The notes under the pieces: generated by a model
The model's database searches: none
What the model saw: only the letters and a program-made list of their open reading frames with translations
What the model was told of the DNA's origin: nothing
Translations under genes and position numbers: made by a program
Shown here: one piece after another, positions 30,950-49,725 of the stretch
How positions within the stretch are numbered: position 1 is the first letter of the stretch
Layout: each line of letters opens with the position of its first letter
Origin: Candidatus Methylomirabilis sp.
Lineage (GTDB): Bacteria > Muiribacteriota > Ozemobacteria > Ozemobacterales > Ozemobacteraceae
Assembly (NCBI GenBank): GCA_020722725.1
Contig: DYKG01000004.1
Location: 25,283-89,282 of the forward strand
DNA: 64,000 bases
Direction of reading: 5' to 3'

Positions 30950-31311
30950 CAAAAATTCTGATTGCCGATGATTCACCCAGCATTCGCATGATGCTTGGCT
31001 CAGTTTTAAATGAAAACGGGTATCAGGTTCAGGACGCCGAAAACGGCCGGGTGGCCCTCGAAAAAGCGTCAGATTTCGGGCCGGATTTGGTTATAACCGA
31101 TCTTAACATGCCTGAAATGAACGGCATTACCCTTGTTCAAAATTTAAGGCGGAACAGCAGATTTAAATTTACTCCGATCCTTGTTTTGACCACCGAAGGC
31201 CAGGAAGAAAAAAGACAGTCCGGCCGTGCCGCCGGAGCAACCGGCTGGCTGGTAAAGCCATTCAATCCAGAAAAATTGATCGCAGTAGTAAAAAAACTCA
31301 CTAATCGCTGA
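30946..31311 (+). CDS. cheY: CheY-type single-domain response regulator
   Basis: A 121-residue receiver domain. It has the acidic pocket IADDS near residue 8, the phosphoacceptor Asp in VITDLNMPEMNG (about residue 53), the Thr in LTTEG and the Lys in VKPF. It takes a phosphoryl group from a CheA HPt histidine and signals to an effector. No flagellar or pilus genes lie in the window, so the target is unknown. It overlaps the STAS gene by four bases and lies 18 bp before the CheA-like gene. Confidence 0.9.
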   Translation: MTKILIADDSPSIRMMLGSVLNENGYQVQDAENGRVALEKASDFGPDLVITDLNMPEMNGITLVQNLRRNSRFKFTPILVLTTEGQEEKRQSGRAAGATGWLVKPFNPEKLIAVVKKLTNR

Positions 31312-31329
31312 GACAGGTAACACCCATTT

Positions 31330-33312
31330 ATGGATAAACAGATCCAGGCTTTTTTTGAAGAAGCTTTCGAACTCCTGCATGAGCTTGAACAGCTTCTTCT
31401 TGACCTGGAAAACTTTCCCGACAACCCCGAAATTGCTGCCGGCATTCTAAGAATTCTTCATACTCTTAAAGGCACTTCGGCAATGTTTGCCTTCAACGAA
31501 ATTTCTGATTTTGTTCACAAAATTGAAGCAATTTTTATTCATTTTCGCGATGCCCGGAAAACTATTGATAAATCTTTGATTGATGTTTTTATTGCCGCAG
31601 CCGATACGATTAGAAGAACTCTTCATGAAGAACCTCATCGGCTTGCCGATCAGAATCAGGTTATTGTTGATAAAATCAATCAAACTTTTGAATCATCCCT
31701 GCAGCAAAAAGAACACCAGGCACCAGAAAAGCTCGTAAAAAAGTCAGGCACCAAAAAGAAAACCGAGAAAAAAAATAAGAAAATCTGGCTGATCGAATTT
31801 ACCCCGGTTCCCGAATTCTTCTCCTCGGGGAACACCCCTGATCGAGTTTTTGCTGAACTTGGCGATCTGGGTGCGTTGAAAGTTGAATGCGACGTCAGCC
31901 GGATTCCGGATTTTCATCAGCTTAACCCTGAAAAATGCTATCTTTCATGGCAATTGACACTGGTTACCGATGCACCCCTTAACGAAATCAAAGATGTTTT
32001 TATTTTCGTTGAAGACCTGGCAAAAATCGACATTAAAGAAAAAATAGCGGATTTTAAAGAAAGCTCTGACCAGCCACCCGATATTCAGCCCCAAACAAAA
32101 ACAGACAAGATAGATGAAAAAAACAGGGTTGAGCCCCAGCCTTCAGATGTGAAAGGCAAGCTAGACAAACTTTCTGGTGTTCTTCCTCAAGATACTAAAT
32201 CCAATGCCCAGGATTTTTCAATTTCTGAAGAAAACGCAGAGACGGGTTTTCTTCAGGCCAATACTGAAAAGATGATTGCTCTTCTTGGCGACCTGGTCAC
32301 CGTTCAGTCGAAACTCAATCAAAAGGCTTCTATACACGGTGATCCTGAAATGATTTCCATTGCCAATGAACTTGAAAATATTACCGATGAATTGCGCGAT
32401 TGCGCCATACATTTAAGCATGTTTCCGATCGGCACTGTTTTTAATGATTTGCGAAATGCCGTTCTGAATGCAGGCAAAGGAAGAGTCACTCTTGAACTTC
32501 AAGGGGCATCGACCGAAATTGACCGATCAGCATTCATGATTGTTAAAACTGACTATGTCGCCATGTTTGCTGCTTTGGCAGCCTTTTCCTCTGATCGTAA
32601 GAATACTTCCCAGAACAAAATTTCTTTCTTTGCCTGTCATCAGGTTGGTAAAGCCCTTCTTGAAATTAAATATCGCTCAGACCCTGATTCAATTGGTCTG
32701 CTTGATTCTTTGAATAATTCCAACCCTGAACCGGATGAACCGGCTTTTTCTTTATTTGAATCGATCAAAGCCCTCGAATCTAAACTGCTGGTTTTGCATG
32801 GTTCTCTGGCTTTTGAAAAGCAGAATGAAGAAAATTTTCTGATTCGGGTCGGCATACCTTTGAATCTGGCCATTATTGAAAGCCTGATGGTGCAGGTTGG
32901 CAAAGGATTTTTCCTGTTGCCCCTGGCCGATATCGAAGAATGTATCGAGCTTTCCGAAGAAGACCAGAACAAAAGCTATCGTAAAAATGTGGCAATAGTC
33001 AGAGGGCAGTTTGTTCCATATCTGCATATTCGTGAAAAATTTTCGGTCAGCGGCAATGCGCCGCCGGTTCAGCAGATTGTCATCATGAAACTTGAGCAGC
33101 AGCGAATCGGCCTGGTGGTTGATCAGGTTGTCGGTGAATACCAGACCGCCATAAAAAACTGGGGTAATTTCTGCAAAGATGTTAATGGCATAAGCGGTGC
33201 GGCAATTCTTGGTGATGGCGGTATCGCTCTGCTCATCGATTTCCGCGCCCTTATCGATGAAGAAAAAGAACTGCTTGAAAATGCTTTGAAGGAAATCAGC
33301 CATGGCATTTAA
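31330..33312 (+). CDS. CheA-like protein with degenerate ATPase domain
   Basis: A 660-residue protein with CheA architecture. The HPt domain (about 1-105) has the phosphoacceptor His44 in ILHTLKGTSAM. A Lys-rich linker and a small alpha/beta domain (about 145-235) follow, then a P3-like helical hairpin (about 308-375) and a C-terminal CheW-like domain (about 515-650, GKGFFLLPLADIEECIEL to SGAAILGDGG). Where a CheA kinase should have the N-box RNxxDHG, DDGxG and GRGVGMD motifs, none is present; the region is short and reads FAALAAFSSDRKN. It should not bind ATP, but can still accept and donate phosphate through His44 and bind the array. Confidence 0.85.
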   Translation: MDKQIQAFFEEAFELLHELEQLLLDLENFPDNPEIAAGILRILHTLKGTSAMFAFNEISDFVHKIEAIFIHFRDARKTIDKSLIDVFIAAADTIRRTLHEEPHRLADQNQVIVDKINQTFESSLQQKEHQAPEKLVKKSGTKKKTEKKNKKIWLIEFTPVPEFFSSGNTPDRVFAELGDLGALKVECDVSRIPDFHQLNPEKCYLSWQLTLVTDAPLNEIKDVFIFVEDLAKIDIKEKIADFKESSDQPPDIQPQTKTDKIDEKNRVEPQPSDVKGKLDKLSGVLPQDTKSNAQDFSISEENAETGFLQANTEKMIALLGDLVTVQSKLNQKASIHGDPEMISIANELENITDELRDCAIHLSMFPIGTVFNDLRNAVLNAGKGRVTLELQGASTEIDRSAFMIVKTDYVAMFAALAAFSSDRKNTSQNKISFFACHQVGKALLEIKYRSDPDSIGLLDSLNNSNPEPDEPAFSLFESIKALESKLLVLHGSLAFEKQNEENFLIRVGIPLNLAIIESLMVQVGKGFFLLPLADIEECIELSEEDQNKSYRKNVAIVRGQFVPYLHIREKFSVSGNAPPVQQIVIMKLEQQRIGLVVDQVVGEYQTAIKNWGNFCKDVNGISGAAILGDGGIALLIDFRALIDEEKELLENALKEISHGI

Positions 33313-33490: not shown

Positions 33491-36385
33491 ATGTTAGATA
33501 ATTTATCCTTGGCCAAGAAAATTTTTGGGGGGTTTATAATCGTAGCAGCTATAACACTTTTTGTGGGTTATATGGGCTACAGTGGAGGCGCAAGCCTTGG
33601 TGAGCATGTTAATGGGATCGCCGAAGTCCGGTTCCCCAGCGTGCAAAGCCTGCTGATCGTTGATCGGGAACTTGAAAAAATCAGCGCTGCGCAACGAACA
33701 ATGCTTAATCCGGAAATTTTTGATGAAGATTACAACCGGCAGCTTAAAATTGTTGAAAATGCCAGAAAAGCCTATAATGAAGCTTTGAAAATTTATGAGC
33801 CACTGCCAAAGTCCAAAGAAGAAGCAGACGAATACACAATTTTCAAAGCCGGGCTTGAAGGTTGGAAAATTGAAAACGACAAGGTTTTTCAATTTTTGGG
33901 CAAGAAAGAAGAAACTGGTATTCGTAACCCTAATGCTTTACGGGTTCTTATCGAAAGCTTCAGCAAGGATCACTATAAGCTTCAGGTTGGGTTGCTTGGA
34001 GAAATAGCCGACTCAAAATCAGGAACCGGTGGTGATGACCATACAGCCTGTAACTTTGGTAAATGGCTGGTAAATTTCAAAACCAGCAATGCCCAGGTAA
34101 ATCAGATTCTAAATGAAATGCGCGATCCTCACCGGGAATTTCACGCTTCGGTCAAGAGAATCAGAAGTTACCTGGATAATGCTGATAAGGACGGTGCCAT
34201 GAGAGTTTTCTCCACTCAAACCAAACCGGCTGCAGAAAAAGTTTTCTCTGCTTTCGCAAGTTTGATTGATGTTGCCGCGCAAATTCAAACATTTCATAAT
34301 CAAGCCACTGAAATTGCTTTTGGTTCTGGCATGCTAAAACAGAATGCCGCCATGGAATCTCTGGCAAAAATCGTTAAGATCAATACTGATTCGGCAATGC
34401 ACGAAGCAGGCGTTGCCAAAAATGATGTAACCAAGGTTAAAAATTTCACTCTTGGCGGTATGCTGCTGGGCTTTCTGCTGGCACTGTTTGCTGGTATTTA
34501 TCTAAGCAGAAATATTAACGGCATTCTTCAGGATTTCCTGGCGGAAATGAAATGGCTTGCGGAAGAAGTGGTTTCCGGAAAACTGGCATCACGTGGCCGT
34601 GCCGCCAAAATCAACTTTGAATTCAGACCTCTGGTTGAGGGAGTCAATCAAACGATTGATTCACTTGTTGGACTGCTTGATGCAATGCCTGCTCCAGCAA
34701 TGGTAATCGATGACAAATTCCAGGTTTGCTATATGAATAAAGTGGCAGCATCTACCGTAGGCCAGACGCAGGATTCAGTTGTTGGACAGCACTGCTATGA
34801 CCTTTTCAAAACCGAAGACTGCCGCACTGAGAAATGCGCCTGTCATCTGGCAATGAGAAATAACCGTGATATCAACAGCGAAACCAAAGCTAAACCCGCA
34901 GGCAAAAATCTTGACATAGCTTACTCAGGTGTGCCGATGAGAGACCAGAATGGTAAAATCATCGGTGCTTTCGAAGTGGTTACCGACCTTACCGCCATCA
35001 AGGCTGCAGGTAGAATTGCAAGAAAAGTGGCCCAATACCAGGAAAATGAAACGAAAAAGCTTACCGCCGGTCTCGGTGCGCTTGCCAAGGGTGATCTTAA
35101 CTTTAAGCTCATTGTTGACAAGGGTGATGATGATACCAAAGAAGCACGCGCCAGTTACGAAGAAATCGCTCATGCCGTGCATGAATGTTCAAATGCAATT
35201 CAGCGACTCTGTGATGATTCCGCTGCGCTTGTGCAATCAGCAATTAATGGTGAACTTGCTACCAGAGCTGATGCTACCAGACACCAGGGCGAATACCGTA
35301 CAATTATAGACGGCGTAAATAAAACCCTCGACGCAGTAATTGGCCCGTTGAAAGTCGCCGCAAATTACGTTGACCTGATCTCTCAGGGTGAAATTCCCGA
35401 AGAAATCACCGACAGTTACAACGGTGATTTCAACGAAATCAAGGAAAACCTCAACGCCTGTGTCAGAAATCTTTCCAGGGTTGCCATTGAAATCAAGACC
35501 GCATCCGATAATGTCGCCAACGGCAGCAATGAGCTCTCGGCCAGTGCCGAACAGTTGTCGAGCGGTGCCAATGAACAGGCCAGCGCGGCTGAAGAAGTTT
35601 CTTCTTCAATGGAAGAAATGAGTTCGAACATTCAGCAGAACGCCGATAACTCAGCACAGACCGAAAGAATAGCACAGAAAGCGGCTGAAGACGCAAGGCT
35701 TGGCGGAAAAGCGGTTACTGAAACCGTTTCGGCAATGAATGAAATTGCTTCGAAGATCGCAATCATCGAAGAAATTGCGCGCCAGACCAATCTGCTCGCT
35801 CTTAACGCCGCAATTGAAGCGGCCCGTGCCGGTGAACACGGCAAAGGCTTCGCGGTTGTTGCTTCCGAAGTTAGAAAACTTGCCGAAAGAAGCCAGCTCG
35901 CCGCCGGAGAAATCCGTGATCTCTCTGCTTCAAGCGTTAAGGTTGCCGCCCAGGCCGGTGAAATGCTGTCGAAAATCGTACCCGACATTCAGAAAACCGC
36001 CGAGCTCATTCAGGAAATCAGCGTCGCATCTAAAGAACAGAACTCGGGTGCCGAACAGATCAATAAGGCTATTCAGCAGCTCGATTCAATTATTCAGCAG
36101 AATGCCGGAGCCTCTGAAGAACTCGCCTCAACTGCCGAAGAGCTGAATTCTCAGGCTGAACAGATGCGTTCGGTAATCAGTTTCTTCAAATTGAAAGGTA
36201 TGGATCGTCAGAAGGTTGGCCGCAATCAGATGACTCACACCAAAACCAAACCCCAGCAGAAGTCTGCCCATGCCCCGGCGGAAAAGGCAGCAGAAAAAGG
36301 CAAGGTAGTAAAAAAAGGCGCGGGCGTCAGCATCAATCTTAACGACGATGTAGACGGCTACGACGCAGATTTCGAAAAATATTGA
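33491..36385 (+). CDS. Methyl-accepting chemoreceptor with CZB-like and Cys-rich PAS domains
   Basis: A 964-residue chemoreceptor. TM1 is at about residues 11-30 and TM2 at about 318-338. The sensory region contains a chemoreceptor zinc-binding-like motif ([10 protein letters not shown] near 183, and [13 protein letters not shown] near 215). After HAMP (about 339-390) comes a PAS domain (about 392-500) with the cluster [18 protein letters not shown], which may bind metal or heme or sense redox. The signalling hairpin tip is [20 protein letters not shown]. There is no NWETF-type pentapeptide at the C-terminus. GAGGAGGG precedes the ATG. It is probably the only receptor of this operon. Confidence 0.9.
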
Positions 36386-36443: not shown

Positions 36444-36965
36444 ATGTCTAACGAATCGGGTACTATCAACCAGTATCTGGCTTTTAAACTTGGTGAAGAG
36501 GTTTATGCGGTAGAAGTAGGGAAGGTTCGTGAAATTCTTGATTTCCCGCCGATTACCAAAGTGCCGCGAACCCCTGATTTCATGCGCGGAGTCATCAACC
36601 TTCGCGGCAGCGTTGTTCCTGTTGTTGACATGCGCCTGAAATTCGGCATGAGCCGAACCGAAAAATCGGTAAATACCTGCATTATCGTCGTTGAGGCGAT
36701 GGTAGAGAGCGAAATTACCACGATCGGGGCCCTGGCCGACTCGGTCCAGGAAGTATTTGAATTAAGCGATGCCAATATTGAACCTCCTCCCAAGATTGGC
36801 ACCCGCCTTAAAGTTGAATTTCTGAAAGGCATGGGAAAAATTGGTGAGAGCTTTCTCATGATTCTCGACATCGACAAGGTGTTCTCTTCAACCGAAATCC
36901 TGATGGTTAAGGATGCCGCAGCAACCGGTCAGCATCTGGTAGAGCCAGACAACTATACCGATTAA
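36444..36965 (+). CDS. cheW: Chemotaxis adaptor CheW
   Basis: A 173-residue CheW domain linking receptors to the kinase. It has YLAFKLGEEVYAVEVGKVRE, the binding-loop block RTPDFMRGVINLRGSVVPVVDMR, and GMGKIGESFLMILDIDKVF. The ATG has ACGGAGG eight bases upstream. It is followed 8 bp later by cheR. Confidence 0.95.
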   Translation: MSNESGTINQYLAFKLGEEVYAVEVGKVREILDFPPITKVPRTPDFMRGVINLRGSVVPVVDMRLKFGMSRTEKSVNTCIIVVEAMVESEITTIGALADSVQEVFELSDANIEPPPKIGTRLKVEFLKGMGKIGESFLMILDIDKVFSSTEILMVKDAAATGQHLVEPDNYTD

Positions 36966-36973
36966 CATGAGGT

Positions 36974-37843
36974 TTGCTCGAAGTGCTTGATGAACAGCTA
37001 AAAAACAACGATTCTATTCCCCGGTTGACCGACCAGGATTATCGGCGTCTTGCTGAATTCGTTACCAACAACTGGGGAATCAAACTGCCGCCGGCGAAAA
37101 AAGTGATGCTTGAAGGTCGCCTTCGCCGGCGGTTAACCGCTTTGAAGATGACGACTTACAAAGAATATTGTGATTATCTGTTCAATTCAGATAATCATCA
37201 GGCTGAAGCCCTTGAAATGATCGATTTTGTCTCTACCAACAAAACCGATTTTTTTCGTGAATCAGATCATTTCAGGTTCCTTCAGGAAACCGTCCTGCCG
37301 GCCCTGATTGAACGCCATGCCAACCTTAACCTGCAGCTCTGGAGTGCCGGTTGTTCCAGCGGCGAAGAACCTTATACTCTCGCCATGGTCATCAGAGATT
37401 TTCAACGGGAAAACCGGAGTTTTCCCGTTAGAATTCTCGCTTCAGATATTTCCGCCAGGGTTTTGCAGCAGGCAAAAATGGCGATCTATAAGGAAGATAA
37501 GATTGCCCCGATTCCTTTCGATCTGCGAAAAAAATATCTCTTAAGGTCCAAAGACCACAAGAATAAAGTTGTGCGATTTGTTCCCGAAATTCGCAATATG
37601 ATTGATTTTGCCCGGGTGAATCTCATGCAGCTTGAAAATTACAATATCGGCTCCCCATTCCATATTATTTTTTGCCGAAATGTAATTATTTATTTCGACC
37701 GGGAAAACCAGGAACGGCTTGTGCAAAACTTTTACGATCGACTCGAACCTGAAGGCTACTTGTTTATGGGGCATTCAGAAGCACTCCCGGGATTAAAAGT
37801 TCCATTTAAAACCGTGGCCCCCATGGTCTACCAGAAAGCTTGA
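36974..37843 (+). CDS. cheR: Chemotaxis methyltransferase CheR
   Basis: Transfers methyl from S-adenosylmethionine to receptor Glu residues. The helical N-terminal domain (to about 75) and the Rossmann-like domain are both present: [10 protein letters not shown], the SAM loop [26 protein letters not shown] and [11 protein letters not shown]. The start is uncertain: TTG 36974 lies too close to GAGG, and GTG 36983 lies 11 bp from it; both are upstream of the first domain. The receptor in this operon lacks a CheR-binding pentapeptide, so CheR must dock directly. Confidence 0.93.
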
Positions 37844-37845
37844 AA

Positions 37846-38910
37846 ATGACGGAAAAACGTTTAAAAACCTTAATCGTCGACGATTCTGCCGTAGTTCGTC
37901 AGGTTTTGACCGAAATTCTCGGTAGTGATCCTGATATTGAAGTCATTGGCGCAGTTGCCAACCCATTTCTTGCCGTCGACCGTATGGCCGAAAATGCGCC
38001 AGACGTTATCGTTCTCGATATAGAAATGCCGAGAATGGATGGACTTACTTTTCTGAAAAAAATCATGACGCAGCACCCGATTCCGGTGGTGATCTGCTCA
38101 AGTCTTGCCGGTCCGGGCGAAGAAACGACCTTCAGAGCCCTTGAACTTGGGGCCGTAGACATAATTACCAAGCCACAGGTCGGTACCCGCGAGTTTCTTG
38201 CCGAATCGAAAATTCGTGTGTGTGACGCAGTTAAAGCAGCTGCCAAAGCCAAAATAGGTAAAATTATTCCCCGCGAAAGGCTGGTTAAGCATACTGCCGA
38301 TGTAATTCTTCCTGCAAAAAAGGTGGCTCTGACTAAAACAACTGACCGGGTGGTGGTTATCGGTGCTTCAACCGGCGGAACCGAAGCCTTGAAAGAACTG
38401 ATTACCAATCTTCCGCTCGATTGCCCTGGAGTGGCAATAGTTCAACATATGCCAGAACATTTTACCGCTTCTTTCGCCAGAAGGCTCAACGATCTTTCAT
38501 GTGTTACTGTTAAAGAAGCGGAAAATGGCGATTCCATGCTGCGCGGTCAGGTTCTCATTGCCCCGGGCAATAAGCACATGCTTCTCAAGCTCAGCGGGGC
38601 AAGATACTTTGTTGAAATCCGCGATGGCCCTCTGGTTTCGCGGCACCGACCTTCTGTTGATGTGCTGTTTCGTTCTTCTGCCAGATATGCTGGCAAGAAT
38701 GCAGTCGGCGTGATTCTTACCGGTATGGGTGATGATGGTGCCCGTGGATTACTGGAGATGCGTGAAGCCGGCGCCAGAACCATTGCCCAGGATGAAAAAA
38801 CTTCGGTAGTCTTTGGCATGCCAAATGAAGCAATTAAACTTGACGCGGCTGAATTCGTGTTACCATTAAATCAGATAAATCAGAAAGTGATTCGATTATG
38901 CCAAGATTGA
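37846..38910 (+). CDS. cheB: Chemotaxis methylesterase/response regulator CheB
   Basis: A receiver domain (1-120; IVDDSAVVR, phosphoacceptor in [13 protein letters not shown]) is joined by a linker to the methylesterase domain. The catalytic triad is Ser in [11 protein letters not shown], His in VQHMPEHFT and Asp in GMGDDGARG. It removes methyl groups from receptors and deamidates Gln when phosphorylated. I chose the ATG at 37846 rather than the TTG at 37840 inside the cheR stop. It overlaps cheD by 13 bp. Confidence 0.95.
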
Positions 38911-39485
38911 ATTCAGAGCTGAGAATCAGGCACAGCGACTTTATCAATGTCGATATTGGCAGCTATTACGCGTGCAAAGATGGTTCAGTTCTTCGCACCC
39001 TTCTTGGGTCATGTGTTTCTACATGCCTATATGATCCACTTTCCGGAGTCGCAGGGATGAACCACATTCTGCTTTCGGAAGTCGCCGACATGAAGAGGTT
39101 TGACGCCAATGCCCGCTATGGCATTCATGCCATGGAAATTCTGATAAACGAAATGGTTAAACTGGGCGCCATCCGCAATCGCATAAAAGCCAAGGCTTTT
39201 GGCGGTTCGAACGTATTGAGGTCTCTTAACGATAACATGTCTCCAGGGGAAAAGAATATCAAATTCATAGTGGAATACCTTGAAATGGAAAGAATACCGC
39301 TGATGGCCAAAGATCTCGGTGGCGATAAAACCAGGGTGATTTTTTTTCATACTGATACCTTCGAAGTTTTTGTCAGAAAAACTTCAACCTCACAGACAAA
39401 ACAGGCCATTTCCAAAGAAACGACACGCAAAACCCAGGTGGTCGAAGAAAAAGACCAGGCCGGCGATATCGAGCTTTTCGAATGA
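38898..39485 (+). CDS. cheD: Chemoreceptor glutamine deamidase CheD
   Basis: A 195-residue protein with the family's catalytic residues: Cys in [13 protein letters not shown], His in AGMNHILL and a Thr in [11 protein letters not shown]. It deamidates receptor glutamines to glutamates that CheR can methylate. A Lys/Thr-rich C-terminal tail (about 165-195) goes beyond the usual 160 residues. It lies between cheB and the HPt gene. Confidence 0.93.
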
Positions 39486-39498
39486 AACAGGAGCTTTT

Positions 39499-40458
39499 AT
39501 GGATCGAGAAACGATGAGCATCTATCTGGAAGGAGCCAATGAGCTTCTTGCCGAAATGGAGGAAGCAATTCTTCGTCTTGGTGACAATCCTGATGAAATG
39601 AGCGAAATTAACCGGCTTTTTCGGGTTATGCATTCCCTTAAAGGCTCTTCTGCGATGGTAGAGCTAAATGATGTCTCAGAATTTGCCCACAAGCTTGAAG
39701 GTGAATGTGATTATTTTCGCCAGGGTAAAGCCAGAGTAAATTCTGAATTTCTTAAACTGGTTCTTAAATCTCACGATCAGATAAAAATTCTTATTTTTTC
39801 TCATTTTGGCGGGGTTAAAGCTGATCACAAGGTTTCTGAATATCTTATCAATGAAATTAAAAAGTTTCGAGGTGGTTCGGTCGCCAGTTCTTTCAGTTTT
39901 GAAAAAGAAGAGCTGCGACTTGTAAGACTTCTGGCGACTATTCAGGATTCAATCAAACATTTAAAAGAATTTTCCATGGATGAAGTTATAAAACTCAGTA
40001 AAGACCTTACATGTTTCCTTCTTTTGAGCCGAAGAATGCAGAAAGAAAGCCTGACAGAATTTATGGCTCCATTCGAAAGGTTTTTAAGAGATTGCAAAAA
40101 ACTTGCCATTGTTCCGCCTGCTGAATTTACCGGATGTCTGCGCGAAGTTCTGGCAGAGGCTTCCAGATTATTGAATGAAAGCGATGTTCAGATCAATGAA
40201 GCGGATTTTTCTCCGGAATCTCTTTTAAGATCGCTGCAGATACCCATGGAACTCAAAGACCGTCTTAACCGAATAAAGGTGAGTATCGATTTTCCCGATG
40301 CAAGATTGCCTGATGAAAAAGAGTATCTGGTCAGACTTGACCAGATTGCTGAAAATATGAAAATTTTTAACCCACAGACGATTGTTGATGCTTTAAGCCT
40401 TTTAGGCAGTGTCAACCAAAAGTCAGATCTTAATTTTCAGAAGGAAAATGGTGCCTGA
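39499..40458 (+). CDS. Stand-alone HPt protein with long helical tail (detached CheA P1)
   Basis: A 319-residue protein. Residues 1-105 are a CheA-type HPt domain with phosphoacceptor His45 in VMHSLKGSSAM and the matching glutamate/lysine helix EFAHKLEGECDYFR. The remaining ~190 residues are predicted helical and match no CheA domain that I know; there is no ATPase or CheW part. The kinase gene follows directly and overlaps by 11 bp, so the pair looks like a CheA cut after P1. AGGAG six bases before the ATG at 39499 fixes the start; an ORF start at 39370 lies inside cheD. Confidence 0.8.
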   Translation: MDRETMSIYLEGANELLAEMEEAILRLGDNPDEMSEINRLFRVMHSLKGSSAMVELNDVSEFAHKLEGECDYFRQGKARVNSEFLKLVLKSHDQIKILIFSHFGGVKADHKVSEYLINEIKKFRGGSVASSFSFEKEELRLVRLLATIQDSIKHLKEFSMDEVIKLSKDLTCFLLLSRRMQKESLTEFMAPFERFLRDCKKLAIVPPAEFTGCLREVLAEASRLLNESDVQINEADFSPESLLRSLQIPMELKDRLNRIKVSIDFPDARLPDEKEYLVRLDQIAENMKIFNPQTIVDALSLLGSVNQKSDLNFQKENGA

Positions 40459-42004
40459 GATGTCTTCTGCTATTGAGTTGCTTCTTAAAACCGAATTAAC
40501 CAGAGAAGAAATTGAAGATCTGCTTGAATTTCTGGTTAAAGACCAGGCACTTTTCGACGTTACACCTGCGGCAAATTTGCCGGTTAGCCCGATTAACCCT
40601 CTGGTAACTCCCAAAATTGGTAAAATTCTGCTTGAAAAAGGTGAGATAACCCAAGAGCAGCTTGAAAAGTCTCTTTCAAAGCAGAAAAGAATCGGAGAGC
40701 ACCTGGTTGATGAAGGACTTATCAGCAGAGAAAAGCTTGATGAAGCACTGAAAGATCAGAACCGCCAGCGGGTTAAAATTGAAGCCCTGAAAAAATCGGA
40801 TATCAGCGCTAACATTAAAGTTAATGCCGGAAAGCTTGATAAGTTGTTCGATCTTATTGGCGAACTGGTAACCGTCCAGGAAAGGCTTTCTCAGGCATCA
40901 AGCGTCATTCGCAAAACACGACCTGAAAATTTGGGGCGGGTAATTGGAGAACTTGATTTAGAAGCCATTTCAGAAGAAATCAGTATGCTGACCAATTCTT
41001 TGCGTGATAATGCCTTGAGTGTACGCATGCTGCCGATCGAATCCACTTTTTCCAAATTCAGACGGCTGATTCATGACCTTTCGGCCGAGTTGCACAAAAG
41101 CATTGAATTATCCATGTCTGGCACCGAAACTGAAATTGATAAAACCGTAATCGATAAACTCGATGAGCCACTGATGCATATCATCAGAAATTGCGCCGAC
41201 CACGGCATTGAAAGCCCGGAAGATCGAAGAAAAGCCGGTAAGCCGGTTAAGGGGAATATTCACCTTTCAGCGGAACATGATGCCGGAAATGTGGTTATAC
41301 ACATTCGAGACGATGGAGCCGGGCTGAATCGCAAACGTATTTTTGAAATTGCTCTGCAGCGCGGTATGATAACTGAAGATACCGTTCTAACTGATGGTCA
41401 GGTTTATAATCTTATCTTTGAACCAGGGTTTTCAACCGCAAAAAACGTTACCAGCATCTCAGGCAGAGGCGTGGGAATGGACGTTGTCAAGAAAACGATC
41501 GAGGGGCTTGGTGGACACGTTAACGTGCTTTCCACCGAAGGAAAAGGCACACAGATCGATATTACCCTGCCGCTGACCCTTGCCATTATTGACGGTCTGC
41601 TGGTTTCTATTGCGCATCAGAGCTTTGTTTTTCCACTGAATGTGGTTAACGAATGTGTTGAACTTCGCAGGAATACTATCGACCAGAGCACCGGCGGCAA
41701 CCTGGCAAATGTCAGGGGGGCTCTTATTCCTTACATAAGACTGCGAGACCTGTTTGAGTTTTCCGGGGAAGCCCCGGAAATCGAACAGATTGTTATCAGT
41801 AGTCTTAATGGAAGGGTTATTGGGTTTGTGGTAGATGAGGTAATCGGTGGTCACAAAACCGTAATCAAGCCTGTCGGCAAGATGTATAAAGCCGTTCCCG
41901 AATTTTCCGGGGCATCTATTCTTGGCGATGGCTCAATTGCGATTATTGTTGACCCGTTTCGAATCCTAAAAATCGCTGAGGCCGCCGAAGCACTGAAAAA
42001 CTGA
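40448..42004 (+). CDS. cheA: CheA histidine kinase lacking HPt, with MshEN-like N-terminal motifs
   Basis: About 517 residues. Instead of P1 and P2, the N-terminus (about 40-105) has two copies of a 24-residue motif: KIGKILLEKGEITQEQLEKS and RIGEHLVDEGLISREKLDEA, each ending L-x-x-Q. This resembles the c-di-GMP-binding MshEN motif. P3 dimerisation (about 110-200) follows. The intact ATPase has N-box HIIRNCADHGIE, DDGAG and GRGVGMDVV. The CheW-like P5 ends SGASILGDGSIAII. It should phosphorylate an HPt in trans, most likely the one encoded just upstream. The start is uncertain between ATG 40448, GTG 40451 and ATG 40460. Confidence 0.88.
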   Translation: MVPEMSSAIELLLKTELTREEIEDLLEFLVKDQALFDVTPAANLPVSPINPLVTPKIGKILLEKGEITQEQLEKSLSKQKRIGEHLVDEGLISREKLDEALKDQNRQRVKIEALKKSDISANIKVNAGKLDKLFDLIGELVTVQERLSQASSVIRKTRPENLGRVIGELDLEAISEEISMLTNSLRDNALSVRMLPIESTFSKFRRLIHDLSAELHKSIELSMSGTETEIDKTVIDKLDEPLMHIIRNCADHGIESPEDRRKAGKPVKGNIHLSAEHDAGNVVIHIRDDGAGLNRKRIFEIALQRGMITEDTVLTDGQVYNLIFEPGFSTAKNVTSISGRGVGMDVVKKTIEGLGGHVNVLSTEGKGTQIDITLPLTLAIIDGLLVSIAHQSFVFPLNVVNECVELRRNTIDQSTGGNLANVRGALIPYIRLRDLFEFSGEAPEIEQIVISSLNGRVIGFVVDEVIGGHKTVIKPVGKMYKAVPEFSGASILGDGSIAIIVDPFRILKIAEAAEALKN

Positions 42005-42646: not shown

Positions 42647-42997
42647 ATGAGCGAAGATAGAATTAAAAAGTTCGAGAACCGTCGCAAAGAACTTGAAAAA
42701 ATGACTGATGAACAGCTTAAATCACGCTTCTGGGAACTCTGCCAGAAAGTTGTCGAACCAATGGTCGATTACGGCAAAAATTATACTTCTCCCTCAATTG
42801 AACGCTCTGTGCTGCTTAGAATGGGAATCGACAGCCCGACCACCCAGGGTGCCGTTCTTCGCATCAACGAAGCCGGTCTGCTCGGCAAAGGTGCCGGACA
42901 TGTCGTTTTAAAGGTTTCAGACAAACATAAAATTACCATTCGCGAAGCCGCAAAGCGAATCGCTGAAGACAAGACTGTTCTCGAAGGTCTTTTTTAA
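42647..42997 (+). CDS. oraS: D-ornithine 4,5-aminomutase small subunit OraS
   Basis: A 116-residue protein. KKFENRRKELEKMTDEQLKS, FWELCQKVVEPMVDYGKNY and a C-terminal AGHVVLKVSDKH are recognised features of OraS. This is the small subunit of the B12- and PLP-dependent enzyme that converts D-ornithine to 2,4-diaminopentanoate. It is always paired with OraE, which follows 13 bp downstream. AAGGAAAC gives the ribosome-binding site. Expression probably begins in the 42513-42646 gap, where I see no convincing plus-strand promoter. Confidence 0.92.
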   Translation: MSEDRIKKFENRRKELEKMTDEQLKSRFWELCQKVVEPMVDYGKNYTSPSIERSVLLRMGIDSPTTQGAVLRINEAGLLGKGAGHVVLKVSDKHKITIREAAKRIAEDKTVLEGLF

Positions 42998-43010
42998 GGG
43001 GGGATACCAG

Positions 43011-45209
43011 ATGACCAAAATTCTTGATCCAAAAAAGAAACTCGATATCGAAGAAATTCTCAACAACCTCGAAGACTACCACCCCCGGCGCAAAGGCTGG
43101 ACCTGGAGAGAAAAAACCGATTATAAAGTCGAAAAGTTCCATTTCAAGGATATGACAAAACCCTTGAAAAATTCGGTTCCGTTGCCCGCATCCAAATATT
43201 TTAATTTTATTGATCCCCAGCCCACACCGGTTATTACCACTGAAATAGCCTCCGGCAGATTTGAAGACGATATCCGGCGCATGCGCATGGCCGCATGGCA
43301 TGGGGCTGACCACATAATGGTTATTCGCACCACCGGTCAGAGCCACATTGATGGCCTGCTTGAAGGCACTCCCGAAGGCGTTGGCGGAGTTCCCATAACC
43401 CGCAAGCAGATTCGCGCATCGCGCAAAGCCTGTGACATGATCGAAGATGAAGTAGGCCGGCCAATTAATTTCCATTCCTATGTTTCCGGTGTTGCTGGTC
43501 CCGAAGTTGCTGTTCTTTTCGCCGAGGAAGGCATCAACGGCGCCCACCAGGATCCGCAGTATAACGTGCTTTATCGCAATGTTAACATGTACAGATCATT
43601 TACCGATGCCGCTTCAGCCAAAAAGGTAATGGCCGATGCCCGCATCTTCCAGATTGATGGTGCCCACAATGCCAATGCTACCGCCAAGGAAGGCTGGTCT
43701 GTCATGCCCGAACTGCTGGTACAGCATGGTATCAACTGCGCATTCTCTGCCGCCTGCGGCATGCCCAAAGACCAGATCGGCCTTTCAACCGTTCCACCCT
43801 GTGCTCCGCCTGCCCCCAAACTCTGGTATGACCTTCCCTATGCGGTTGCCCTGCGCGATTTCTTCAAAGAATACAAGTTTCGGGCGCAGCAGAATACCCG
43901 CTACATTGAGGCCGACATCGAAGAAGCAACCCGCACCCATGTTATTGATACCCTGATTTCAGCCCTTACTCATGCTGACATTCAGAGCACCATCACACCA
44001 GATGAAGGCCGCAATGTGCCCTGGCATTACAATAACATTCGCGGTATTGAAACTGCCAAGCAGACCCTGGTCGCACTTGACGGGATAAAACAGTTGATTA
44101 AAATCGACCGTGACGGCCCGCTAGGTGAAATGGTACGTGACCTCAAGGAACGGGCGATCTGCTTTTTAGAAGAAATGCTTGAAAGCGGCGGCTATTTTTT
44201 TGCGGTAGAAAAGGGCTTTTTCGTTGATTCAGCCCGTTACCCGGAAAGAAATGGCGATGGCATTGCCCGCGACGGAAAAGGCGGAGTTGGAACCGGCTCG
44301 ATCGTCGAGCGCGAAGCCGATTATATGGCCCCGGTCTGCAGCGTGTTCGGCAAAAATAATCTGCCCGCTGGCCTTAAGAAACCCTGCGATCTCATCGATG
44401 GCTGCACTTTGTGCAAACCTGAAAAAATCTTTTATCTTGATGAAATTGACCCCAATGATAACTGCAATCTGCGCCTGAAAAAGACCGAAGAATTTCGCAA
44501 AGGCGATAAGATCAGACCAGAAGTGGAATGGGCCGGCGATGGAACCGTGCTGATTCAGCTTTTTCTGCCCGAAGAAATCGAAGTGGCAAGAGTTGCAGCC
44601 CTTGAAGTCGCCAAAAAAATGGGGTTGAATGAACCCGAGGTTATCAACGCCCAGGTCATGCACCCTTCTGAAGGCACTTTTCTTGAAGTTAAGGGCAAGG
44701 TCGATTTCAGTATCGATAGAAAATCCCTGAAGATTCCACCGAAAGAAGAAATGCTCAGCGAAGAAGAAATTCGCGCCGGAATCAAAAAAGTCGGTTTTAA
44801 AGTCGTTGCCGGTACCGTGGGAGAAGACGAGCATTCGGTCGGTCTGCGTGAAATTCTTGATATCAAGCATGGCGGCATCGAAAAATACGGGGTAAAATAC
44901 CACTACCTCGGAACCTCGGTTCCCATAGGAAAAATGGTCGATGCAGCCATCGAAACCGGAGCCCAGGCCATTCTTATCAGCACCATCATCAGCCACAACG
45001 ATGTGCATCGCAAAAATATGCGCAAACTTGACGAATTGTGCCGAGAAAAAGGCATCAGAGACAACCTGATTCTGATTTGCGGCGGCACCCAGGTTACCCG
45101 TGAAATTGCCAGAGAATGTGGCATGGATGACGGTTTTGGTCGTGGCACCAAAGGAATTCATGTGGTTAATTCAATGGTTAAAACCATGAAAGCCAAAGGA
45201 AAAATCTAA
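43011..45209 (+). CDS. oraE: D-ornithine 4,5-aminomutase large subunit OraE
   Basis: A 732-residue catalytic subunit. The N-terminal TIM-barrel part (1-~590; HGADHIMVIRTTGQSHIDGL) is followed by a C-terminal Rossmann B12-binding domain. The base-off cobalamin motif D-x-H-x-x-G appears as DEHSVG, and TSVPIGKMVDAAIETGAQ and ICGGTQV complete the cobalamin fold. It uses adenosylcobalamin and PLP to move the amino group from C5 to C4 of D-ornithine, an anaerobic amino-acid fermentation step. It is the full length of the family. A structured repeat and a terminator-like hairpin follow the stop. Confidence 0.95.
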   Translation: MTKILDPKKKLDIEEILNNLEDYHPRRKGWTWREKTDYKVEKFHFKDMTKPLKNSVPLPASKYFNFIDPQPTPVITTEIASGRFEDDIRRMRMAAWHGADHIMVIRTTGQSHIDGLLEGTPEGVGGVPITRKQIRASRKACDMIEDEVGRPINFHSYVSGVAGPEVAVLFAEEGINGAHQDPQYNVLYRNVNMYRSFTDAASAKKVMADARIFQIDGAHNANATAKEGWSVMPELLVQHGINCAFSAACGMPKDQIGLSTVPPCAPPAPKLWYDLPYAVALRDFFKEYKFRAQQNTRYIEADIEEATRTHVIDTLISALTHADIQSTITPDEGRNVPWHYNNIRGIETAKQTLVALDGIKQLIKIDRDGPLGEMVRDLKERAICFLEEMLESGGYFFAVEKGFFVDSARYPERNGDGIARDGKGGVGTGSIVEREADYMAPVCSVFGKNNLPAGLKKPCDLIDGCTLCKPEKIFYLDEIDPNDNCNLRLKKTEEFRKGDKIRPEVEWAGDGTVLIQLFLPEEIEVARVAALEVAKKMGLNEPEVINAQVMHPSEGTFLEVKGKVDFSIDRKSLKIPPKEEMLSEEEIRAGIKKVGFKVVAGTVGEDEHSVGLREILDIKHGGIEKYGVKYHYLGTSVPIGKMVDAAIETGAQAILISTIISHNDVHRKNMRKLDELCREKGIRDNLILICGGTQVTREIARECGMDDGFGRGTKGIHVVNSMVKTMKAKGKI

Positions 45210-45234
45210 AAAACAGCGGTTGCTGAACTCGTCA

Positions 45235-45276
45235 CCTATATGGTCGCTGAACCTGTAAAACGGGTCAAAGCGACAG
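45235..45276 (+). repeat. 42-bp structured repeat, copy 1
   Basis: ACCTATAT followed by a two-part hairpin: the outer stem GTCGCT/AGCGAC (45244-45249 with 45270-45275) and the inner stem ACCTG/CGGGT. A second copy lies at 60613-60654 with compensatory changes. It starts 26 bp after the oraE stop. Confidence 0.65.
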
Positions 45277-45299
45277 TAAGCACTTAAAGTTTTTAAAAA

Positions 45300-45333
45300 C
45301 AGCCGGGTCTGGGCTTCTCAGCCCGGCTTTTTG
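45300..45333 (+). terminator. Intrinsic terminator after oraE
   Basis: AGCCGGG and CCCGGCT arms around a loop that can also pair internally (GGGCT/AGCCC), followed by five T. It would end the oraS-oraE transcript. Confidence 0.75.
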
Positions 45334-45343
45334 CTGCCGGTAG

Positions 45344-45372
45344 TTGCGGAAAACTTCAAATAAAGCTATCAT
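45344..45372 (+). promoter_or_regulatory. Sigma70 promoter TTGCGG-17-TATCAT
   Basis: Optimal spacing, 35 bp before the ATG at 45407. It separates this gene from oraSE, which end in a terminator just upstream. Confidence 0.6.
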
Positions 45373-45406
45373 GCCGGAAGCAGAAAAGATATTTAGGAGA
45401 GAAAAT

Positions 45407-46072
45407 ATGATAGATTATGCATTTGAGCTGGATAATGGAAAAAAGGTTGGTTTCAAGGTTCAGTTTAACCGAAATGAATGGCTTACCGAAGATAAAGCCC
45501 TGTTTCCCGAATGGACTCGCATGGCGTTTCAGCAATGCACGATCTGCCCATTTTCTGCGACGGAGCATTTCTATTGCCCGACTGCAGTTGATGTAAAAAA
45601 TGTTGTTTCCGAGTTCGCCGAGATTTCTTCAATTAATGAAATGAACGTTGTCGTTCGCGTGCAGGATCGCACCATTCGCAAGCGATGTCATGCCCAGATC
45701 GGACTCAATTCTCTTATGGGGCTGCTGATGGCAACAAGTGCCTGCCCGGTTCTGGCAAAGCTGAATTCGCTGGCTCGGTATCACCTGCCTTTCGCTTCTT
45801 TTAATGAGACTCTCTATCGAACGGTCGGTGATTATTTGATTAAGCAGTATCTGATCAAAGCTGAAGGGGGTACCCCCGATTTTGAACTGATCGGCCTGGA
45901 AGCCCTTTATCGCGACCTGGGCGAACTCAATAGATGTTTTCTTAACCGAATCAAGGAAGTGGCAAAACTTGATGCTTCTTTGAATGTTATTGCGAACCTT
46001 TCCAGTCTGTCGATGATAATGCAGATCTCAATCAGCGATCGTCTGAAATCTTTCAAAAACGATCTGATCTGA
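45407..46072 (+). CDS. DUF6901-like protein in the ornithine cluster
   Basis: A 221-residue soluble protein. Recognisable blocks are TICPFSATEHFYCPTAVD (Cys pair and His), a central GLNSLMGLLMATSACPVL and RYHLPFASFNETLYRTVGDY. From memory they resemble the DUF6901 family, whose function is not known to me. The Cys/His block suggests metal binding. AGGAGA before the ATG at 45407 sets the start; the open frame to 45344 overlaps the promoter. It lies between oraE and the glmL-like gene but has its own promoter, so a link with ornithine breakdown is only suggested. Confidence 0.6.
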   Translation: MIDYAFELDNGKKVGFKVQFNRNEWLTEDKALFPEWTRMAFQQCTICPFSATEHFYCPTAVDVKNVVSEFAEISSINEMNVVVRVQDRTIRKRCHAQIGLNSLMGLLMATSACPVLAKLNSLARYHLPFASFNETLYRTVGDYLIKQYLIKAEGGTPDFELIGLEALYRDLGELNRCFLNRIKEVAKLDASLNVIANLSSLSMIMQISISDRLKSFKNDLI

Positions 46073-46099
46073 TTCTTTTTTCTTTAAAATTTCATATAG

Positions 46100-46128
46100 T
46101 TGTTTAAGAACCTTGGTTATGCTAAGAT
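46100..46128 (+). promoter_or_regulatory. Promoter of the glmL-like/orr/alr operon
   Basis: TTGTTT, 17 bp, TAAGAT with TGC directly before the -10 (extended -10). It ends 30 bp before the ATG at 46159. Confidence 0.55.
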
Positions 46129-46158
46129 TACCCTGAATTTTTCAGGTAAGGTCAAAGC

Positions 46159-47496
46159 ATGAGAAAAAAAATCGATATTCTTACCCTTGAAGTTGGCAGC
46201 ACCATAACCAAAGCCAACGGGTTTGTCCGCACTCACAATGATTCACTGCAGCATATTGCCCAGGGGTTTGCCCCTACCACGGTTGACCAGGGCAATGTGG
46301 GAATCGGTTTGAAGGATGCCATTGATAATCTTGAACAGAACTCAGGCTGCAGCACCGATAATGCCGATATTTTCGCAAACAGCTCAGCTGCCGGCGGTTT
46401 GCGGGTAACGGTTCACGGTTTAACCTGCAACATGACAGCCCGGGCTGCCCGAGAAGCCAGTCTTGGTGCCGGGGCAATCATAAAAATGGTGACAGCTGGC
46501 GATATCAGTGAATTTGATCTCGAAGAAATTGAAGAAATCAATCCCAACATGATTGTTCTGGCCGGCGGGGTTGATTTCGGCGCCAGCGACATCGTTATTC
46601 AGAATGCGATAAAAATTGCTTCACTCGATCAACGGGTGCCGATTGTTTATGCCGGCAACAGCGCGTTGAAGCGGGCTATCGAAAATATTTTCAAGAAATC
46701 AGGCTTTGAACTGCTGATTGCCCCGAATGTTTTTCCTGATGTTGATGTGCTTGATGTGGAGCCTTTGAGAAAACGCATGCAGGAACTGTTTTCGCGCCAT
46801 ATCATTCATGCACCGGGTATGCATCGCCTGCAAAGCCTGACCGGTCGCCAGATCATACCGACCCCGGGGGCTGTTCTTCGCGGTGCTGAGCTTTTTGCTG
46901 AAGTTGCCGGTGATTGTATGGTCGTCGATGTTGGTGGTGCAACCACCGATGTTCATTCGGTTACCGATGGATCCAGGGAATTTGCCGATAAACTTATCGA
47001 CCCTGAACCGCGCAGCAAAAGAACGGTTGAGGGAGATCTCGGAGTTTTCGTAAATGCCGCCAACGTTCTGGAATTGGCAGAAGACGATGCCTGGATGGCC
47101 CGCCGTGATGAAATAAGGGCAATGCCGAAAACCGAAAGAGAAGTTGAGATTACCCGCTGGCTCTGCCAAAAGGCGGTGGATGTCGGAGTAAAACGCCATG
47201 CCGGAAACGTTTCAGATCTTTTTACCCCTTCCGGAAAAAAACAGATCATCAAAGGGAAAGATCTGTCTGCAGTCAAATGGGTAATTGGCACCGGCGGAGC
47301 GCTGACCAGAGTTCCGGGGGGTGCAGATATTCTTGGTTCTGTCTGCACCGGTCCGTCACGATCACTGCTGCCAAAACCAGATGCAAAAATTCTTCTTGAT
47401 AAAAACTACCTGTTTTCTGCCCTGGGAACCGTTGCCATTGAGTTCCCGGATTTGGTGAAAAACACCTTTAAGGAATGGATTGAAGCAAATGTTTAA
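46159..47496 (+). CDS. GlmL-related (MutL-type) ornithine-degradation accessory protein
   Basis: A 445-residue protein of the ASKHA ATPase fold. ILTLEVGSTITKANGF is the phosphate-1 loop, CMVVDVGGATTDVHSV phosphate-2 and KWVIGTGGALTRVPGG the adenosine loop. GlmL/MutL proteins sit beside B12-dependent mutases and are thought to act as reactivating chaperones. Its neighbours oraE and orr point to the ornithine mutase as partner. It is the first gene of an operon with orr and alr; its stop overlaps the start of orr. Confidence 0.88.
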   Translation: MRKKIDILTLEVGSTITKANGFVRTHNDSLQHIAQGFAPTTVDQGNVGIGLKDAIDNLEQNSGCSTDNADIFANSSAAGGLRVTVHGLTCNMTARAAREASLGAGAIIKMVTAGDISEFDLEEIEEINPNMIVLAGGVDFGASDIVIQNAIKIASLDQRVPIVYAGNSALKRAIENIFKKSGFELLIAPNVFPDVDVLDVEPLRKRMQELFSRHIIHAPGMHRLQSLTGRQIIPTPGAVLRGAELFAEVAGDCMVVDVGGATTDVHSVTDGSREFADKLIDPEPRSKRTVEGDLGVFVNAANVLELAEDDAWMARRDEIRAMPKTEREVEITRWLCQKAVDVGVKRHAGNVSDLFTPSGKKQIIKGKDLSAVKWVIGTGGALTRVPGGADILGSVCTGPSRSLLPKPDAKILLDKNYLFSALGTVAIEFPDLVKNTFKEWIEANV

Positions 47497-48598
47497 TTTA
47501 AATGAAAATATTTCAATTGGAAGAAAAACCCCACGCCTTGAGATTTACCCGGACAGAATCAGGGCAAATGCCGCTGCCATAATCGGCCAATGCCACAGTG
47601 CCGGGGTAAAAGTTGCGTGTGTTACCAAGGTTACTGCGGCTCATCCTGCAGTTGCTTCGGCTATGGCTCAGGCAGGTGCCGATATGCTTGCCGATTCGAG
47701 AATTGAAAACCTCTGGAAATTAAGAAATGCCGGTTTCAGGGGGCCCTTCATGCTTTTGCGCCTGCCTGCCATTTCGCAGTCTGCTGCAGTAGTAGAAGTT
47801 GCTGATTACAGTCTCAATTCAAGTTTAACCACGATGAAGGCGCTTTCTGACGCGGCATTAACGAGAAACATCCGGCATCGCGTGATAATAATGATTGACG
47901 TTGGTGACCTGCGCGAAGGTGTCTGGCCAGATAAAGCCGTTGACCTGGTAAAAAGAGCCGCCGAGCTAAAAGGCATTGAAGTTGCCGGGCTCGGCTGCAA
48001 TCTTGCATGCTATGGCGGGGTTATTCCATCTGAAGAAAACATGAAGCTTTTTGTTGACACGGTTGTTGAATGTCGCAAGGCAAGCGGTCTTGAATTGCCG
48101 ATACTTTGCGGCGGCAACAGCTCGGGCCTGCCAATTCTTGCTGACGGTAAGCTTATGGCCGAAGTAAACCTTTATCGTATCGGTGAGGCAATAGTTCTCG
48201 GACGCAATGTAATCGACCGCTCCCCCTGGACTGGAACGCGTCAGGATACGGTTGTGTGTGTGGCTGAAGTTATTGAGGCTCAAATCAAGCCTTCCATTCC
48301 CATAGGCAATCGCGGGCAGGACGCTTTTGGTGGCTCTCAGGATTTTGTCGATCGTGGCAACCGAAAACGGGTGATATGTAATATTGGCCGCCAGGATGTC
48401 GTTGTAGACGGCATTACCCCGGTAGAAGACGGCATCATGGTTCTTGGTGGGTCGAGTGACCACCTGCTTCTCGACGTTCACGACTGCGCCCGCGAGCTGA
48501 AAGTTGGCGATGAAATTGCGTTTTACCCTGGCTATGGGGCCCTGCTTGCCCTTTCCACTTCTGAATATGTTCATAAAACGGTGATTTCGGGAGAATGA
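47489..48598 (+). CDS. orr: Ornithine racemase (PLP-dependent)
   Basis: A 369-residue fold-type III PLP enzyme of the alanine-racemase N-terminal-like family. The N-terminal LEIYPDRIRANAAAIIGQCH and the PLP-lysine block KVACVTKVTAAHP are clear; NLACYGGVIPSEENMKLF and GGNSSGLPIL match the Orr/YhfX subgroup. It makes D-ornithine from L-ornithine for OraSE. I chose the ATG at 47489; a TTG at 47480, in frame, is possible. Its stop overlaps the start region of alr, so both racemases are translationally linked. Confidence 0.85.
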   Translation: MFNLNENISIGRKTPRLEIYPDRIRANAAAIIGQCHSAGVKVACVTKVTAAHPAVASAMAQAGADMLADSRIENLWKLRNAGFRGPFMLLRLPAISQSAAVVEVADYSLNSSLTTMKALSDAALTRNIRHRVIIMIDVGDLREGVWPDKAVDLVKRAAELKGIEVAGLGCNLACYGGVIPSEENMKLFVDTVVECRKASGLELPILCGGNSSGLPILADGKLMAEVNLYRIGEAIVLGRNVIDRSPWTGTRQDTVVCVAEVIEAQIKPSIPIGNRGQDAFGGSQDFVDRGNRKRVICNIGRQDVVVDGITPVEDGIMVLGGSSDHLLLDVHDCARELKVGDEIAFYPGYGALLALSTSEYVHKTVISGE

Positions 48599-48600
48599 CC

Positions 48601-49725
48601 ATGCTATACCAGACCCACGCTCGTATTCACCTGGCAAACATCAGAAACAATCTTGAAAACATCAGAAAAGCAGTAGGTAAAGACCGCAAAATACTTATTG
48701 CCGTCAAAGCCAATGCCTACGGTCACGGTGCCGTCGAGGTTTCGAGAATGGCCGAAAAAATTGGAATCGATTGGCTCGGCGTTGCAACTGTTCCTGAAGG
48801 GCTACAGCTTCGCGAGGCGGGAATAAATTTACCAATACTAAAATTCAGTCCCGCTTTTGCTGAAGAAATGGAAGCAGCGGTGAAAAATAAACTTGACCTG
48901 GCAATTGTAGAAATTGAAAATGCCAGGCAGTTACAGAAGTGCTGCGTTGATCTTGGTTTGAGAGCAAGAGTTCATTTGAAAATTGAAACCGGTATGGGAA
49001 GAATCGGGGCAACCCCTGAAGATGCATTAAAAATAGCCGAAGAAATCAGGCAGAATTGCCCGAACCTTGAGTTGTTCGGAGCCATGACTCATCTGCCGGT
49101 CAGTGACGAAGCAAGTAAAACCTTTACCAGTCGTCAGATTGATCGGTTCAAAAAATATGTTGATGATATCGAAACTGCTTTGAGCTTTAAATTTCCCCTG
49201 GTTCATTGCTCTAATTCTGGCGCCGTTCTCGCTCATCCTGACGGGTGGTTCGATATGGTCAGGCCTGGTATTATGATTTATGGCTTTTATCCCGATCGTG
49301 AGACCCCGCAAACCATAGACCTCAAACCGGGTCTGAGTTTTATTACCCGTGTCTCTTTTGTTAAAAAGGTCGAAAAAGGTTGTTCAATCGGTTATGGCCG
49401 CAGCTGGGTCGCTTCTGAAGACACTTTTATCGCCACTTTCCCAGCCGGTTACGCCGATGGTTTCAATCGCCTTTTTTCAAATTCCGGGCGGGTATTGATC
49501 AACGGAAAATCATACCCGATTGCCGGGCGGGTATGCATGGATCAGAGCATGTGCAATCTTGGCTCGAAAACCACGGTAAAACCGGGAGACAAAGTCACAT
49601 TAATTGGAACTGACGGTAAAGAAAACATTTCTGTCTATGAATGGGCGGAAAAACTCAAAACCATAACCTATGAGGTTACCTGTCAGATCAACAGCCGTGT
49701 TTGCCGGTATTTTGATGAGTATTGA
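48601..49725 (+). CDS. alr: Alanine racemase
   Basis: A 374-residue PLP enzyme supplying D-alanine for peptidoglycan. The catalytic Lys is in LIAVKANAYGHGAVEV (about residue 37) and the catalytic Tyr in CSIGYGRSW (about 264). LKIETGMGRIG, HCSNSGAVL, MVRPGIMIYG and GRVCMDQSM are also standard. The start ATG at 48601 lies seven bases after GGGAG; the ATG at 48595, overlapping the orr stop, is too close to it. Co-transcription with the ornithine genes is unusual for a cell-wall gene. Confidence 0.95.
   Translation: MLYQTHARIHLANIRNNLENIRKAVGKDRKILIAVKANAYGHGAVEVSRMAEKIGIDWLGVATVPEGLQLREAGINLPILKFSPAFAEEMEAAVKNKLDLAIVEIENARQLQKCCVDLGLRARVHLKIETGMGRIGATPEDALKIAEEIRQNCPNLELFGAMTHLPVSDEASKTFTSRQIDRFKKYVDDIETALSFKFPLVHCSNSGAVLAHPDGWFDMVRPGIMIYGFYPDRETPQTIDLKPGLSFITRVSFVKKVEKGCSIGYGRSWVASEDTFIATFPAGYADGFNRLFSNSGRVLINGKSYPIAGRVCMDQSMCNLGSKTTVKPGDKVTLIGTDGKENISVYEWAEKLKTITYEVTCQINSRVCRYFDEY

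Follow-up and report, generated by a model that had tools for sequence, protein, structure and literature searches.

A CheA kinase encoded as separate HPt and kinase proteins in an uncultured family of Candidatus Riflebacteria

A che cluster that ends in a two-gene CheA

The window, by which we mean the whole 64,000-nucleotide stretch of DNA analysed here, comes from a 3.6 Mb MAG (91% complete) in which no 16S rRNA was found; the named organisms closest to it are Ca. Riflebacteria, Ca. Ozemobacter sibiricus among them. The window carries a che cluster on one strand (+) in the order STAS, CheY, CheA2, MCP, CheW, CheR, CheB, CheD, HPt, kinase. First comes a STAS-domain protein (30608–30949; STAS_2 6.7e-5, below the STAS_2 cut-off); a STAS-like gene lies upstream of cheY-cheA in genomes G014 and G007 too. 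A CheY-type receiver protein (30946–31311, start ATG 30946; Response_reg 7.6e-30) and CheA2 (31330–33312), a pseudokinase CheA described below, are followed by a methyl-accepting chemotaxis protein with 4HB, CZB, PAS, HAMP and MCP signal domains (33491–36385; Pfam), CheW (36444–36965; CheW 4.4e-38), the CheR methyltransferase (36974–37843; CheR 3.3e-60), CheB (37840–38910; CheB_methylest 1.1e-66, Response_reg 3.6e-23) and CheD (38898–39485; CheD 6.2e-27). Two full-length CheA genes lie elsewhere in the genome, on contigs C82 and C52, the one on C52 adjoining flhB/flhA/flhF-like genes as judged from the open reading frames. Downstream of the che cluster, the translations at 42647–49725 read as an ornithine aminomutase-like cluster with small and large subunits, a MutL/GlmL-like protein and two alanine-racemase-like proteins.

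The first gene of the terminal pair (39499–40458, +) encodes a 319-aa HPt protein, the N-terminal fragment of the split CheA, which is kept in four other genomes. Pfam places an Hpt domain at residues 6–94 (3.1e-14) and finds no other domain at E ≤ 0.1, and thus neither a kinase nor a CheW domain. The predicted P1 phosphorylation site, His45 (39631–39633), sits in a VMHSLKG motif and is invariant in all aligned HPt relatives, and the P1 model resembles CheA P1 structures, R. sphaeroides CheA3 P1 among them. What the original prediction had called a helical tail is indeed helical, and can be described more closely as a second HPt-like bundle (39898–40284): AlphaFold2 models it as five helices, and the tail-bundle profile matches the P1 of the same proteins (E 5.3e-8, score 49.6), a score that none of 150 column permutations reached (maximum 18.8). 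No conserved histidine was found in this second bundle among the aligned HPt relatives. Another stand-alone relative of the HPt protein is a free 496-aa protein in G007 (L088 7609–9099, contig C8), composed of an HPt domain, a second HPt-like bundle and a C-terminal partial receiver and adjoining a full CheA.

The second gene (40448–42004, +) encodes the C-terminal fragment, an HPt-less CheA kinase of 518 aa recognized by Pfam and by its orthologues (56–60% identity in L077, L078 and L081, and a two-piece one in L079). It contains the P3 dimerization domain (40811–41020; H-kinase_dim 9.5e-9), a P4 ATPase domain (41165–41578; HATPase_c 1.9e-17) with intact N, G1 and G2 boxes (RNCADHG at residue 247, DDGAG at 288 and GRGVGMD at 339) and a P5 CheW-like domain (41594–41971; CheW 5.6e-26), and the Pfam search found no Hpt domain in it, N-terminus included. 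The two genes overlap by 11 nt in the window, with an alternative kinase start at an in-frame ATG (40460) directly 3' of the HPt stop. Searching both proteins for Hpt, HATPase_c and CheW thus bore out the content predicted from the letters: an HPt-type protein with His45 and no kinase, overlapping a kinase with P3, intact ATPase boxes and P5 and no HPt. Considered as a two-protein unit, the pair has a P1 with a phosphorylatable histidine, P3, boxed P4 and P5, and departs from a CheA in not being a single polypeptide, being encoded by two genes in five genomes. We conclude that it is a genuine split CheA, a finding confirmed by these searches and by the conservation described next.

The kinase also carries, between its N-terminal region and P3, two MshEN-type 24-residue motifs (40613–40759; NCBIfam NF053729, 51.3 bits against a cut-off of 38), and these repeats match PilF 6f8l (8e-8). 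As MshEN is a c-di-GMP receptor, the motifs suggest that a c-di-GMP input to CheA is possible. Binding by this kinase is nevertheless uncertain, because an MshEN domain has two RLGxx..LxxxLxxQ motifs with a 5-residue spacer, whereas the spacer here is 1 residue and several relatives have another residue in place of the motif Arg. Fused CheAs of the family have similar MshEN-type repeats, as does L106.

Conservation and origin of the split

Among 40 genomes of the phylum, 5 contain the split: the window genome, G022, G021, G017 and G005, which represent three genus groups of one Ca. Riflebacteria family. The order CheD-HPt-kinase is identical across them, and MCP-CheW-CheR-CheB lies upstream of the pair wherever the contig extends that far; in G022 it is found on a second contig, together with CheA2. 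Across genera, the P3-P4-P5 regions of the split kinases are 59–72% identical and keep all boxes. The split kinase was not found in the other genomes of the family, including G001 from the same genus group. At the thresholds used, G001 has no orthologue of the split kinase, the HPt protein or CheA2, and has a flagellar CheA; the che cluster may be accessory, or it may be missing from G001, an 84% complete MAG.

The junctions between the two genes differ from genome to genome. Alongside the 11-nt overlap in the window there is an ATGA overlap in G022, an 8-nt gap in G021 and a 13-nt gap in G017, and in G005 a contig ends between the HPt gene and the kinase gene. Relative to the HPt gene, the kinase frame is +1 in the window and G017 and +2 in G022 and G021, and no slippery site or homopolymer common to the junctions was found when those of the split genomes were compared. 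With stops, spacings and relative frames differing in this way, the cases cannot all be put down to a single indel or a single conserved frameshift. A frameshift or assembly error merging the two genes was one of two threats to the original prediction, and the separate frames and differing junctions of four further genomes speak against it, just as the Hpt-free N-terminus of the kinase removes the other concern, that an HPt domain had been overlooked there.

Further candidate splits were rejected. The G021 kinase seemed to be split a second time, but that internal break is a run of N. A CheA on contig C22 of G007, a genome without the HPt/kinase split, is broken by a frameshift at a 13-A homopolymer (L089 7900–8200), probably a sequencing error, and its P4 is degenerate too. 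A candidate independent split in an Oligoflexia bacterium (L166 8185–11062) is not HPt-less, because the kinase has its own Hpt; that locus comprises a stand-alone 318-aa HPt protein directly before this kinase, a CheA whose CheW domain is truncated.

Phylogenies of both parts point to the same source. The kinase tree (P3-P5) unites the five split kinases and one fused CheA, on contig C29 of G017, in a single clade (100/99); the tree of the N-terminal part likewise joins the five HPt proteins and this fused CheA in one clade (100/98), with the same inner order as in the kinase tree. This agreement indicates that the pair descends from one fused CheA and not from the recruitment of an unrelated HPt protein. 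The kinase tree leaves the position of G017:C29 unresolved, and the N-terminal tree places it beside the split proteins of G017 and G005 (98/93). Constraining the five split proteins to one clade was not rejected (AU p 0.306 for the kinase, 0.074 combined). The history may therefore have been one fission, one fission followed by a re-fusion, or two fissions, with G017:C29 either unsplit or re-fused. The ordinary CheAs of the family (G002:C100, G014:C110, G007:C6 and G017:C29, the last being the closest and sharing a clade with the split proteins) have the same module order as the pair, namely P1, second HPt-like bundle, P2-like domain, MshEN-type repeats, P3, P4 and P5, but as one polypeptide.

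A divided P2-like domain and a pseudokinase neighbour

In the fused relatives, an 83-residue P2-like domain lies between the second HPt-like bundle and P3. Its complete form in CheA2 (31786–32034, +), which served as our reference (15-member alignment, AlphaFold2, Foldseek), is modelled at pLDDT 95 as beta-alpha-beta repeated twice. Foldseek searches with this model return ferredoxin-like folds, and T. maritima CheA P2 is among the matches (TM 0.57/0.59, probability 1.00, but E 6.9e-3). The domain resembles CheA P2 (Thermotoga maritima 1u0s_A) in having a ferredoxin-like fold and in lying between P1 and P3; unlike that domain it is here divided between two proteins, and the resemblance comes without a sequence match, the P2-like profile matching no solved chain among PDB sequences.

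Each partner of the split pair appears to retain one beta-alpha-beta half. The five HPt-protein tails align with positions 1–31 of the P2-like domain (40321–40425 in the window; profile-profile score 21.2), and the five kinase N-termini with positions 54–83 (40466–40561; 26.8); none of 200 permutations scored as high in either case (maximum 13.9 and 14.0, respectively). Single-sequence scores were weak for most HPt-protein tails, that of the window included, and a search of the fused G017:C29 with the two halves combined in one composite profile gave no match to the domain above shuffles. Folded alone with AlphaFold2, the C-terminal half-domain of the window HPt protein has low pLDDT, which would be expected of a half-domain and is also compatible with disorder. 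As judged from these profiles, the split lies within a ferredoxin-like domain that resembles CheA P2 and is complete in CheA2, and both halves are kept at complementary profile positions. Since each partner keeps half of the domain, the pair may be tethered by re-association of the two halves.

The cluster had also been predicted to hold a second, inactive CheA, and CheA2 (31330–33312, +) is indeed such a protein. It has a P1 with His44 (Hpt 1.3e-13), the P2-like domain, a P3 (H-kinase_dim only below the cut-off), a degenerate P4 and a P5 (CheW 5.6e-21); Pfam found no HATPase_c in the window copy, and the N-box and GRGxG are lost. The pattern is shared: in all five split genomes the N-box asparagine and the GRGxG box have disappeared from the CheA2 next to CheY, and the G1 aspartate-glycine box is left only in G017 and G005, whereas the ATP-site boxes are present in the split kinases of 5/5 genomes. 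The five CheA2 proteins form one clade (100/98), with mean pairwise identities of 45% for P1, 49% for the P2-like domain, 53% for P3, 29% for P4 and 62% for P5; for comparison, P4 identity in the intact G002–G014 pair is 63%. The phosphorylatable histidine is present in the HPt protein in 5/5 genomes and in CheA2 in all 4 copies with P1 in the sequence (the G017 copy is cut there). The alignments thus indicate that the ATP site of CheA2 has decayed in all five split genomes while P1, P2-like domain, P3 and P5 have been kept. The five genomes share ancestry, so this coincidence with the split does not represent five independent events; and because non-split G007 also has a degenerate CheA at the STAS-CheY position, the association is strong but not exclusive.

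Proposed phosphotransfer in trans and its precedents

In CheA, P4 depends on P1 as its substrate, and it is through P5 that the kinase is attached to receptors and CheW. The split kinase lacks P1 and so must act in trans; phosphotransfer between proteins is what the predicted anatomy requires, and the cluster offers two sources of P1, the HPt protein and CheA2. We propose that the kinase protein (half P2-like domain, MshEN-type repeats and P3-P4-P5) would dimerize through P3 and join the MCP-CheW array through P5, and that the HPt protein (P1, histidine-less HPt-like bundle and half P2-like domain) would offer His45 in trans to the kinase dimer, after which phosphorylated His45 would serve the cluster's own CheY and CheB. 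The P2-like halves would most likely re-associate, docking the HPt protein onto the kinase, and CheA2, which can sit in the array because it has P5, is probably a second phospho-acceptor or scaffold for the split kinase. To this explanation as a whole, comprising a genuine split CheA, phosphorylation of His45 in trans, half-domain docking and CheA2 as acceptor or scaffold, we assign a probability of about 0.7. More tentatively, the family may have a kinase that was cut in the middle of a docking domain and is held together by half-domain complementation, and a paralogue turned into a dedicated pseudokinase acceptor in the same array, so that one ATPase would work with two P1 donors.

The true substrate could instead be the P1 of CheA2, reached within the array or in a heterodimer much as CheA4 reaches CheA3, which would make the HPt protein a phosphate sink or shuttle and not the main acceptor. 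The retention of P1, P3 and P5 with loss of P4 alone in 5/5 split genomes fits such a role, as does the characterized CheA3/CheA4 precedent, in which both proteins have P5 (PMC3591291). We nonetheless consider it unlikely, as the HPt protein and the kinase share a fused-CheA ancestry, are adjacent wherever contigs allow and each keep their P2-like half, which suggests that they still cooperate. We therefore favour the HPt protein as the main partner and CheA2 as an additional acceptor or scaffold. Decay of the whole cluster, with the split and the dead CheA as stages of loss and without function, seems improbable: the strong degradation of the CheA2 P4 and the absence of the split kinase from the family's other genomes searched, same-genus G001 included, would suit it, but the P3-P4-P5 identity across genera, with all boxes kept, the retained P1, P3 and P5 of CheA2 and the persistence of the split in three genus groups argue against it. 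Least credible is the idea that one full-length CheA is concealed by a programmed frameshift or by an error in sequencing or assembly; the window kinase frame is open for 39 nt upstream of its start, so that a single indel would join the frames, but five assemblies with differing stops and spacings, both frame relations and no common slippery site or homopolymer largely refute it.

CheA-like kinases encoded in two pieces have precedents. Synechocystis PilL-N/PilL-C (Hik36-Hik43) is one such kinase and is like the window pair in this respect. As the original prediction had noted, split CheAs are known in a few bacteria, such as the CheA3/CheA4 pair of R. sphaeroides (PMC3591291, PMC2829493). 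There, CheA4 (P3-P4-P5) phosphorylates CheA3 (P1 and P5), and neither protein functions without the other (PMC3591291). Among the species that Hamer et al. examined, only four others had CheA4-like proteins (PMC2829493), and a survey, as cited in PMC3591291, gives 11 split against 470 complete CheAs (11/481). Modelling ties split kinases to switch-like responses (PMC3591291).

The window pair shares with CheA3/CheA4 a P1-less P3-P4-P5 kinase, a separate P1 protein and, by prediction, phosphorylation in trans (PMC3591291, PMC2829493). It differs in its P1 protein: CheA3 has P5 and a 794-residue linker with phosphatase activity, whereas the HPt protein has no P5 and carries the histidine-less HPt-like bundle and half of the P2-like domain instead. 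The kinase differs from CheA4 in bearing the other P2-like half and the MshEN-type repeats, and the cluster in including a pseudokinase CheA with P1 and P5, although CheA2 also has P3 and a P4 remnant. Because P5 on the P1 partner is a defining feature of CheA3/CheA4, we regard the window pair as a variant of that type and not a member. Split CheA as such is already known; a P5-less P1 protein, a divided domain and an adjacent pseudokinase CheA are a different solution. Split CheAs are reported to be rare, with R. sphaeroides as the biochemically characterized case, and the present one is conserved in an uncultured phylum. The half-domain tether, if true, would be a route, open to direct testing, by which evolution could divide a signalling enzyme.
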